In this document: piece after piece, positions 43,682 through 48,318 of the stretch | Position numbering within the stretch: the first letter of the stretch is position 1 | Layout: every line of letters begins with the position of its first letter | Source of the DNA: Bacillota bacterium | Lineage (GTDB): Bacteria; Bacillota; Clostridia; Saccharofermentanales; Fastidiosipilaceae | Assembly (NCBI GenBank): GCA_030057555.1 | Contig: JASGUU010000070.1 | Coordinates: 1 to 59,094 of the forward strand | Length of the DNA: 59,094 nucleotides | Direction: 5' to 3' | Position numbers and translations under genes: made by a program | The notes under the pieces: generated by a model | What the model saw: the letters and a program-made list of their open reading frames with translations, nothing else | Databases searched by the model: none | Told to the model about the DNA's origin: nothing

Positions 43682-43821
43682 GTGGCACCTCCTGCAGGTA
43701 AAGGTCAGACAATTGGTTTGGATGCTACCGGACAAATACTAACACGGATGCAGCCCCGGCAGCCGGGAGGCGGCCGACTGCAGCTGCTTTGCCGGATGCT
43801 CGTAGCGTTCGCTGCTCTGCG

Positions 43822-44078
43822 GTGGTCAGGATCGTGAGAAATCCAAAACTTTCTGGGTAAATATGCACAGTTCTGCATATAGTCTCGGGAATATTCGTTT
43901 TCGTGAATAATTGTGCAAAGCCATTTGGATTACAGCCAAAGTTGACCAGCGGTGGTCAGGATCGCGAGAAATCCAAAATCTTTTGGGTAAAGATGCACGG
44001 TTCTGCATAGAGGCGCGGAAATATTCATTTCCACGGATAATTATGCAAAGCCATTTGGATTACAGCCACAGTTGACCA
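43822..44078. repeat. Two 127-bp palindromic repeat units
   Basis: Units at 43822-43948 and 43952-44078. Each starts GTGGTCAGGATCG.GAGAAATCCAAAA and ends GCCATTTGGATTACAGCC then AGTTGACCA, the same outer words as the 71-bp units at 28591-28938. The interior is replaced by about 60 bp rich in TGCACA/TGCATA and GAATATTC words that itself forms a stem (TGCACA with TTGTGCA). So this is a longer subtype of the same family. Confidence 0.88.
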
Positions 44079-44226: not shown

Positions 44227-44269
44227 TGTGACGAAACGCACAGAAATCCGTATCCGGATGCCCTAAAAT
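44227..44269 (+). promoter_or_regulatory. CRP/FNR-type site and promoter P1 for pflB
   Basis: TGTGA-CGAAAC-GCACA (44227-44242) matches the CRP-family consensus TGTGA-N6-TCACA at 9 of 10 positions. A -10-like TAAAAT lies at 44264-44269. If transcription starts at 44276, the site is centred at -41.5, the class II activator position. Confidence 0.65.
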
Positions 44270-44279
44270 CTATCCCATC

Positions 44280-44322
44280 TGTGATCGCGATCACTGCACC
44301 CATTCCGCTTTATCTCTACACT
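44280..44322 (+). promoter_or_regulatory. CRP/FNR-type site and promoter P2 for pflB
   Basis: TGTGA-TCGCGA-TCACT (44280-44295) is a near-perfect palindrome with 9 of 10 consensus positions. A -10-like TACACT lies at 44317-44322. With a start at 44329 the site is again centred at -41.5. A half site TGTGATCA at 44322-44329 overlaps the predicted start. The fused regulator encoded downstream is the natural candidate to bind here. Confidence 0.65.
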
Positions 44323-44402
44323 GTGATCAACTGAGAAACGACCCACTGTCCGGCGGTGCGGAGACCTGTCCGGACGTGAATGACACTAAAAGAAGGGGAG
44401 AC

Positions 44403-46688
44403 ATGACGCAGATGAACCAGGTTCCAGAGAACACAGCCACCACCACAGCCGTGCCGGCGTTCCGGCCGGGCGTCTGGCAGGAGCGGATCGATGTCCGTAA
44501 CTTTATCCAGACCAACTACACGCCCTATGAGGGTGACGACGACTTTCTGGTTGATGCGACCGAAAAAACCAGAGCGCTCTGGGCGAAGGCCGATGCCATG
44601 GTGCAGGAGCAGGTGCGGACAGGACAGGTTGATGTGGCGCTGGATCGTTTCAGCGGCATCGATGCCTACGATCCCGGCTATCTCGACCGCGAACTCGAGG
44701 TCATCGTCGGCTTCCAGGCCGATGCACCGCTGCGGCGCATCATAAATCCCTACGGCGGCTTCCGCATGGTCGAGAATTCGCTCAAGGCCTACGGGCTGGA
44801 AATGGCGCCGGGCCTGGCCGAGAGCTTCAACGAATACCGCAAATCCCACAACCAGGGCGTCTTCGATGCCTATACGCCCGCGATGCGCGCCGCCCGCAGC
44901 GCCGGCCTCCTGACCGGTCTGCCCGACGCCTACGGCCGCGGCCGCATCATCGGCGACTACCGCCGCGTCGCGCTCTACGGCCTTGACCGCCTGATCGCCG
45001 CACGCCGGGCGGACCGGGCGGCCGACAGCGGCCCGGCTACCGAGGAGCGTATCCGCCACCGTGAGGAGCTCTCGGAGCAGATCCGCGCCCTCGAGGAGAT
45101 GAAGCGGATGGCAGCCCGCTACGGCTACGATATCGGGCGCCCGGCCGAGACGGCGGCGGAGGCGGTGCAGTGGGTCTACTTCGGCTATCTCGCCGCGATC
45201 AAGGAGAACAACGGTGCCGCCATGTCCTTTGGCCGCAACACCACCTTCCTGGACATATACATCGAGCGCGATCTGGCGGCCGGGCGCATTACCGAGGCCG
45301 AGGCGCAGGAGCTCATCGATCAGCTCGTCATCAAGCTGCGGCTGGTCCGCCATCTGCGCACGCCGGAGTACGACGACCTCTTCGCCGGCGACCCCACCTG
45401 GGTGACGGAGTCGCTCGGCGGCATGGCGACGGACGGGCGGACGCTGGTGACGCGGACGACGATGCGCTTTTTGCATACATTGACCACGCTTGGACCCGCA
45501 CCGGAGCCTAACATGACCGTGCTCTGGTCGGAGGATCTGCCCCGCGACTTCAAGGAGTACTGCGCCCGCCTGACCATCCAGACCGGCTCGATCCAGTATG
45601 AGAGCGATGACCTGATGCGCCCGCTCTACGGCGACGACTATGCGATCGCCTGCTGCGTGTCGGCGATGCGGATCGGCAGGGACATGCAGTTCTTCGGGGC
45701 CAGAGCCAACCTGGCGAAGGCGCTGCTCTACGCGATCAACGGCGGCCGCGACGAGAAGCGCATGGACCGCGCCAGCGGGAAGCCGATGCAGGTTCTCGAG
45801 GGAATAGAGCCCATCACCGATGAGGTGCTGGACTATGAGTGTGTGAAGGAGCGCTACTGCCAGGTTCTCGACCAGCTCGCCGGGCTCTATGTCGACACCA
45901 TGAACACGATTCACTACATGCACGACAAATACGCCTACGAGGCCGGGCAGATGGCCCTGCACGATCCCGAGGTGCACCGCTACATGGCCTTCGGGGTGGC
46001 GGGAATCTCGATTGTCGCTGACTCCCTGAGCGCGATCCGCTATGCCGAGGTGCGGCCGGTGCGCGACGAAAACGGGATGGCGATGGACTTTGAGATCACG
46101 GGTGGCTTCCCACAGTACGGCAACGACGATGAGCGCGTCGACAGCCTGGCCCGTGAGGTGGCCAAGTACTTCAGCGATGCCCTGAAGCGCCATCCCGCCT
46201 ACCGCGGTGCCGAGCACACGCTTTCGCTGCTGACGATCACCTCGAATGTGGTCTATGGCAAAAAGACCGGCACGACGCCCGACGGCCGCAAGGCGGGCGA
46301 GCCCTTCGCCCCCGGCGCCAACCCGATGCACGGCCGCGACCGCTCCGGCGTGCTGGCTTCGCTGAACTCCGTCGCCAAGCTGCCCTATGCCGGCGTCTGC
46401 CAGGATGGCATTTCGAACACGATCAGTGTCGTGCCGCGCACGATCGGGCGCCATCCGGGCGAGCGCATCCAGCACCTGACCGGCATCCTGGATGGCTATT
46501 TCCGTCAGGGCGGCTTCCATGTCAACGTCAACGTGATGGACCGCGAGATGCTGATCGACGCCATGGAGCACCCCGAGAAGAATCCGAATCTGACGATCCG
46601 CGTGTCGGGCTATGCGGTGCACTTCAATCGCCTCTCGCGCGAGCAGCAGCTCGAAGTCATCTCGCGCACCTTCCATACCCGTGTCTGA
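44403..46688 (+). CDS. pflB: Formate acetyltransferase (pyruvate formate-lyase)
   Basis: Glycyl radical enzyme of 761 aa converting pyruvate and CoA to formate and acetyl-CoA in anaerobic fermentation. The catalytic pair is C417-C418 in A-C-C-V-S-A-M, as in true PFL, and the radical is G736 in R-V-S-G-Y-A-V. Length matches E. coli PflB. AAGGGGAG precedes ATG 44403; ATG 44412 is the alternative and GTG 44376 is less likely. Upstream lie two CRP-type promoters. The activase-regulator fusion starts within the last codons, giving an 8-bp overlap. Confidence 0.96.
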
Positions 46689-48318
46689 GCAGGGGACGAC
46701 ACCGTCGGCGGCTGTTGCTGCCGCCGACGCGGCAGCGGCGCCGGCCGCAGGCGGGGCCGCTGCGGCAGACCGCGGCACGATCGGGTACATCCACTCGATT
46801 GAGACCATGGGCCTGCTCGACGGACCCGGCATCCGCACGGTCATCTTCCTGCAGGGCTGCCCGCTGCGCTGCGCCTACTGTCACAATCCCGACTCGCAGC
46901 CGCTGCGGTCGGAGGCGGCGACGGAGATGACGCCGGCCGAGGTCCTCGCCCTGGCCGAGCGCCAGCGCAGCTACTTCGGCGAGGAGGGCGGGGTGACCTT
47001 CTCGGGCGGAGAGCCGCTGCTGCAGGGAGCCTTTCTCTATGAGTGCCTGCGTCTGCTGCGTGACGCCGGCATCACGACCGCCGTGGACACCTCCGGCTTT
47101 GGCGATCCGAACTGGTATCGGCAGGTGCTGCCGCTTGTTGACACGCTGCTGCTCGATGTCAAGGCTTTCGACGCCGAGCGCTTCCGCGACCTGATCCAGG
47201 GCTCTTTCGCGACCTGGGTGAACTTCGCCGACTCGCTTGTCGAGAACGGCTTCGAGGGGCAGATCTGGATCCGCCATGTCATGCTGCCGGGCTGGAGCGA
47301 CGACGAGGCCTCGATGGACCGGCTCGTCGAGACGGTGCTGCCGCTTGGCTATCTGGTCGACCGCATCGATATCCTGCCCTATCATACGATGGGCATCGAA
47401 AAGCACACCGCCATGGGGCGCCCCTATCGCCTCGAAGGGCTCCCGCCCATGGATGAGACCAGGGCCTGGGAGCTCGAACGCTACGCCAACCGCCGCTTTA
47501 TCGAACGTCTGGCGGCAGGGCGCGAAACCGGTGCCGGGACCAGGACCCCTGCGCCACGGAGAAAGGAAGCCGAGATGAACCAGGTCAGAGAAAGCCCCTA
47601 TGCCGTGGATCCGGATACGAGTCAGATCTGGCTGCGCGACGGCATCGACCTGCGAAAGCTGCCGCTCGTGCGCCACCTCAGCATCGCCGCCTTCGAGGAG
47701 ATGATGTCGGATTTCAGGATGCTCCAGGTACGCAAGGGCGATGTCTTCTTCCGCTCCGGTGATCCCGCCGACCGCCTCTATATCGTGGCGACGGGACAGT
47801 TCAAGATCTACCGCTACACCGTCGACGGCCGCGAGCAGATCCTCTATATCTACAATCCCGGCGATTTCGTCGGCGGTCTCAATCTGCTCACGGGCCATCG
47901 CTATGTCTACAATGGCCAGGCCCTCGAAGACAGCCTGATCTGCACCATGTCAAAGGACTTCTTCGACCGCCACTGCCTCGACAACCCCCACATCCTGCGC
48001 CAGATCCTCGAGAAGAGCTACGATCGCATCCGCTGGGCCGAGGACCTGATCTCCCGCCTCTCCTCCGCCAATGCCGGCATCAAGACCGCCGAGCTCATTC
48101 TCCGCTTCGCCGACCGCTACGGCGTCCAGACTCCCGAAGGCATCCGTATCGAGCTGAACCTCAACCGCGAGGAGCTCGGCAGCTATGCCGGTCTCTCCCG
48201 CGAGACCTTCACCCGCAAGCTCGGCGAATTCCGCGAGCTCGGCTACCTCGACTTCTCCGGCAACCGCATCATCCTGGTCAAGGATCCCGACGCGCTGATG
48301 GCCTACTTCGAGGGCTGA
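46681..48318 (+). CDS. PFL activase fused to CRP/FNR-family regulator
   Basis: Single frame of 545 codons. Residues 1-33 are an Ala-rich leader; 34-290 are a radical SAM PFL activase (C60, C64, C67 in [15 protein letters not shown]), without the ferredoxin insert. A linker (about 285-300) leads into a CRP/FNR-like protein: cyclic-nucleotide-binding-type beta barrel about 320-430 ([12 protein letters not shown]) and helix-turn-helix about 480-520 ([12 protein letters not shown]). There is no N-terminal FNR cysteine cluster. Start is GTG 46681, coupled to pflB. An internal ATG at 47575 follows AAAGGAAG, so a free regulator could also be made. No stop separates the parts. Confidence 0.85.

Follow-up and report, generated by a model that had tools for sequence, protein, structure and literature searches.

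We consider it likely that positions 44280-44322 of the 59,094-nt stretch analysed here (the window) form a single main class II promoter for the operon pflB - pflA-crp, that this operon activates itself, and that a second, distal TGTGA-type site is ancillary. A dimer of a Crp/Fnr-type regulator would bind [AT]GTGAT-N4-RTCAC[TA], centred 41.5 bp upstream of a predicted start at 44329, where it would overlap the weak -35 region and recruit RNA polymerase to a -10 hexamer at fixed spacing. The second gene encodes the enzyme that activates the fermentation enzyme pyruvate formate-lyase (PFL), and the carboxy-terminal part of that protein is, in this species, the predicted regulator, so that the operon would activate itself. 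The distal site at 44227-44242 would either assist the main promoter in a class III-like manner from -94.5 or drive a minor promoter at 44276. Activation, as the direction of control, is inferred from the position of the site. The features are as follows.

44227..44242, + strand: distal site TGTGACGAAACGCACA, centre 44234.5, which is -41.5 from 44276 or -94.5 from 44329
44264..44269, + strand: TAAAAT, -10-like, spaced from the distal site as in class II promoters; the start predicted from it is 44276
44280..44295, + strand: proximal operator TGTGATCGCGATCACT, centre 44287.5, which is -41.5 from the predicted start 44329
44296..44297, + strand: GC directly 3' of the proximal operator, -33 and -32 relative to the predicted start
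44317..44322, + strand: TACACT, -10 hexamer of the main promoter (start predicted at 44329), with the same six bases in the sister species
44322..44326, + strand: TGTGA half site at the predicted start 44329, probably there by chance
44403..46688, + strand: pflB, formate C-acetyltransferase (glycyl radical enzyme; TIGR01255 at 1158.5 bits, cut-off 994.2; PF02901, PF01228)
46681..48318, + strand: pflA-crp fusion, PFL activase (radical SAM) plus Crp/Fnr-family regulator (PF04055, PF00027, PF13545; TIGR02493)
47575..48318, + strand: regulator part with its own ATG after the Shine-Dalgarno sequence AGAAAGGA, a possible internal start

The first-pass annotation described two TGTGA-N6-TCACA sites, each matching at 9 of 10 positions and 53 bp apart, with a -10-like hexamer at the same distance from each. 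All of this holds: there is one mismatch per site, both hexamers begin 37 bp past the start of their site, and both centres fall at -41.5 from the predicted starts 44276 and 44329. The half site that it placed over the second start does exist, but the sister species has TATGA there. These are the only two sites with no more than one mismatch in the whole 59 kb, a count that is not itself unusual, being reached by 20 of 100 shuffles. Their proximity is another matter: since there are 44 sites of this type in 2.9 Mb genome-wide, another falling less than 100 bp away from the first is expected with p ~0.003. A TTGACA/TATAAT promoter was not found in the region upstream of pflB, where the -35 is poor; this is to be expected if the promoter is read as activator-dependent. 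Farther upstream, at 43819-44078, lie two direct copies of a 130-bp sequence (87% identical), pieces of which repeat at some 60 genomic places, frequently with a spacing of 71 bp, and repeated stem-like elements (AGTTGTGTCA...TGACACAACT) are seen upstream of pflB in the sister species (L132:1-110). No Rfam family reaches its gathering score within the window.

The pflB upstream regions of 26 distinct genomes with linked pflB-pflA-crp were compared. This sample includes G016, where just a helix-turn-helix (HTH) remnant follows pflA, and G095, where the contig (L142) stops within pflA and the fused crp part lies on another contig (L036). A site aligning with the proximal operator is found in all 26 genomes, which as relatives are non-independent samples and which share little in these regions beyond the operator and the -10; the comparison that had been proposed thus bears out the proximal site in 26 of 26 genomes and the distal one in the sister species. 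The consensus is [AT]GTGAT-N4-RTCAC[TA]GC, with the -10 at the same distance. Invariant throughout are G, T and G at operator positions 2-4, T, C, A and C at positions 12-15 (0-based 11-14, hence the label T11 below) and the G that follows; counted from zero, positions 1-4 and 11-14 are nearly invariant, and the flanks are low in information. That G (-33) is followed by C (-32) in 21 of the 26, and the pair is perhaps a remnant of a -35 element. Leave-one-out scores of the 26 sites run from 13 to 22, against a 95th percentile of 8.6 for the best score in 500 bp of shuffled sequence. Among 58 control pflB promoters without an operonic crp (mainly Clostridium and Lachnospiraceae), only three, all from Clostridium and without an adjacent crp, score above 13; the operator therefore follows linkage to crp (26/26 vs 3/58).

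The distance to the -10 is equally constrained. In 25 relatives, agreement with TATAAT at offset 37 averages 4.16 matches, compared with 2.06 (sd 0.50) over all offsets, and by leave-one-out the best -10 falls exactly at offset 37 in 14 of the 25. Searching 98 genomes with the composite of operator and -10 gives 24 hits vs 0 for backward controls, and in the window's own genome the single hit is this pflB promoter. With the 26 relatives aligned, the activator site thus stands at about -41.5 in a fixed -10 register, as in promoters of the class II CRP/FNR type. This is strong evidence that the proximal site is an operator in class II position, its operator function being a prediction, and the fixed register supports activation from -41.5. 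The proposal of tandem class II promoters accordingly survives for its proximal half, but the distal half lacks both a -10 in the sister species and T11.

Outside the window, the distal site occurs in the sister species (G001) alone, with 14 of its 16 bases retained; among remoter relatives, the second-best sites show no common spacing. It scores 8.3-8.6, at the edge of the shuffled range, compared with 13-22 for proximal sites, and we propose that it is a weaker, recent addition. For its role, a class III-like helper site and a second promoter at 44276 seem equally likely to us. As a helper, a possibility we hold tentatively, it would act on the main promoter from upstream (-41.5 plus -94.5) and would be no promoter itself. 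The spacing to the proximal site, 53 bp in the window vs 62 bp in the sister species, is in both cases close to a whole number of helical turns, and the resulting positions, -94.5 and -103.5 from the main start, can be set beside the peaks of E. coli Crp motifs at -41.5, -61.5 and -93.5, the last of which has been named class III (PMC5957442). Such a helper is, however, confined to two species, and it leaves unexplained why a good TAAAAT stands in register.

Two independent tandem promoters, P1 at 44276 and P2 at 44329, activated by the same regulator, would explain that hexamer, and this reading is possible if somewhat doubtful. P1 in the window has its site, a G at -33 and TAAAAT in exact register; since TAAAAT is the best -10 among the 218 hexamers of the region, its occurrence at the one right position has a chance of about 1 in 218, and the pair of sites is itself improbable by chance, as noted above. 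Against this, the hexamer at class II distance in the sister species is AAAAGG (score -1.1), so that the site is retained there and its -10 is lost, the site occurs in no other relative, and it lacks T11, a base invariant in 26/26 proximal sites.

The single main promoter that we favour could also be read with the opposite sign: the regulator would repress by blocking the -35 region, which the operator does overlap, and direction is unreadable from sequence. We think this improbable, given that repressor sites allow varied positions, whereas the spacing between this operator and the -10 is constant across many genera, and that the -35 is poor.

The likely start of pflA-crp is the GTG at 46681, which overlaps the pflB stop, and from there a single open frame runs to 48318. 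The activase part scores 233.1 bits with TIGR02493, above the curated cut-off of 231.75, and its CX3CX2C motif is invariant across 13 fused proteins. An AlphaFold model of the fusion (mean pLDDT 76) shows two folded parts joined by a low-confidence (disordered) linker at residues 249-271; the first matches the E. coli PFL activase 3cb8 (TM 0.80 by target) and the second matches Crp-family proteins. A free regulator of 247 residues may also be produced, because an ATG with a Shine-Dalgarno sequence precedes the regulator part within the frame. This arrangement is present in the window, in the sister species and in two genomes of another genus, g21, where a perfect TAAGGAGGT with ATG is found within the fused frame at L144:3879 and L145:4341. 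A word search of the literature, limited in its reach, found no description of a PflA-Crp fusion.

There are two clear Crp-family proteins in the window's genome, the fused regulator and one encoded on contig C69. The recognition helix of the former, SRETFTR, aligns with SRETVNK of GlxR and of Mycobacterium tuberculosis CRP, and within this genome the RE-type helix of TGTGA binders occurs in the fused protein only, the C69 protein having RPSFSR. Because the fused protein is thus the sole clear Crp-family protein here with a TGTGA-type helix, autoregulation is likely and is the simplest reading. A further alternative, in which the operator belongs to another regulator, either Rex or the C69 protein, without a feedback loop, takes something from the presence of a rex gene in this genome and from the resemblance of the site to the Staphylococcus Rex box TTGTGAAW4TTCACAA (PMC2883068), but we regard it as improbable, given that the base after TGTGA in the 26 operators is T (22), C (3) or G (1) and never the A that Rex requires, that the C69 helix differs, and that the operator tracks linkage to crp.

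The feedback loop predicted by the first-pass annotation, with the cotranscribed fused regulator activating pflB, therefore has its most plausible binder in this genome, as judged from the helix, but it does not apply throughout. In genus g13 the helices of the fused proteins have diverged (RDSLTR, RESLIR or RQALAR), and in G016 the regulator is mostly gone; yet the operator stays. Since the HTH has drifted there and the operator remains, operator conservation by itself leaves the fused protein unproven as the binder. Every such g13 genome examined encodes a stand-alone paralogue with the canonical helix RETMTR, which probably does the regulator's job in this genus. In the case of G016, PflA ends in a degenerate HTH remnant (L141:3080-4102), apparently a decayed fusion, and the genome retains a stand-alone regulator (L198) and the pflB operator despite the near-loss of the fused one.

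Fusion of activase and regulator is common to about 22 genomes. On the regulator tree the 22 fused regulators group together (two label changes, a number as low in none of 500 shuffles); one member, L139, has apparently been split again. In some other loci, among them L062, L064, L068 and L069, the regulator has a gene of its own, located behind pflA. The Fnr-like regulators of these four named loci resemble the fused proteins in their place downstream of pflA and in having the operator upstream of pflB, but they are unfused and carry a 4-Cys motif (CxxCxxCxxxxC-like) near the amino end that the fused proteins lack; the distant outgroup regulator of L208 has a similar Cys-rich stretch. The operator is probably older than the fusion, since it is present with both fused and separate regulators. 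The tree was midpoint-rooted on a long branch, and so any order of events is a suggestion only.

As to the signal, the cAMP-binding motif GEL...RTS of CRP is not kept (GGL...YVY in the alignment with GlxR and M. tuberculosis CRP), the linker of the fused protein contains no Cys, and the regulator part has no Cys cluster. The amino-terminal Cys cluster of FNR, the 4Fe-4S oxygen sensor, is likewise absent, and the window holds no FNR-type TTGAT-N4-ATCAA site with one mismatch or fewer. Neither cAMP nor an FNR-type cluster is therefore predicted, and we infer that the signal is probably the redox or Fe-S state and not cAMP, with redox input via the activase half as a possibility. A more specific idea, which we rate as speculative and rather unlikely, is that the activase half does the sensing, with the Crp half switched by the state of the activase's [4Fe-4S] cluster or by SAM or PflB binding. 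This would stand in for the 4-Cys motif that unfused relatives retain.

Outside pflB, the strict operator occurs in the window's genome at one further place, inside an amidohydrolase gene. A broad regulon there was considered and rejected, as near-matches scoring above 4 are without a comparable -10 in register. In G013, the operator TGTGACGGCGGTCACA and a TATAAT in the same register lie upstream of pyruvate:ferredoxin oxidoreductase (L233:1502-1545), which fits a predicted regulator of the pyruvate node. In four g13 genomes, G026, G055, G081 and G021, operator and -10 are followed by a noncoding stretch that is conserved and lies downstream of rsmG (operator at locus position 1501 in L272, L274, L276 and L277, respectively, on the minus strand in L274 and L277). 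In this stretch, GGTAATC-TCCCCC-GATTATC makes up a hairpin whose loop is rich in C (only the L272 copy was folded), and a terminator-like hairpin follows, with a T-rich tail in some. The whole resembles a C-rich sRNA activated by Crp/Fnr, a candidate for which Rfam gives no convincing match.

Class II Crp/Fnr-dependent promoters of E. coli have a site centre at -41.5, a weak -35 and CRP-type half sites, and the Fnr site of Bacillus subtilis is TGTGA-N6-TCACA. The pflB promoter shares those three features with the class, but differs in that its operator serves essentially one operon in this genome and in having a conserved, asymmetric GC at -33/-32. E. coli focA-pfl is controlled by FNR, and control of pfl by the Crp/Fnr family is predicted here too; in this case, however, the half site is TGTGA, not TTGAT, and the regulator is in the operon, fused to PflA and without the 4-Cys motif. 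PutA, BirA and NadR are enzymes that regulate their own operons. The fusion is like them in joining a metabolic protein and an own-operon DNA-binding regulator in one polypeptide, here with a radical-SAM PFL activase and a Crp/Fnr module instead.

The promoter architecture is thus textbook; what is gained is a well-defined operator for a family of regulators joined to a radical-SAM enzyme, and with it a search pattern for the rest of the regulon, such as pyruvate:ferredoxin oxidoreductase and the candidate sRNA. The tree allows the apparent loss of the 4-Cys motif and the fusion to be ordered. For fermenting bacteria, this offers a testable example in which an enzyme activase would double as its own transcription factor and, if the activase half were indeed the sensor, pfl transcription would be coupled directly to the capacity of the cell to activate PFL.
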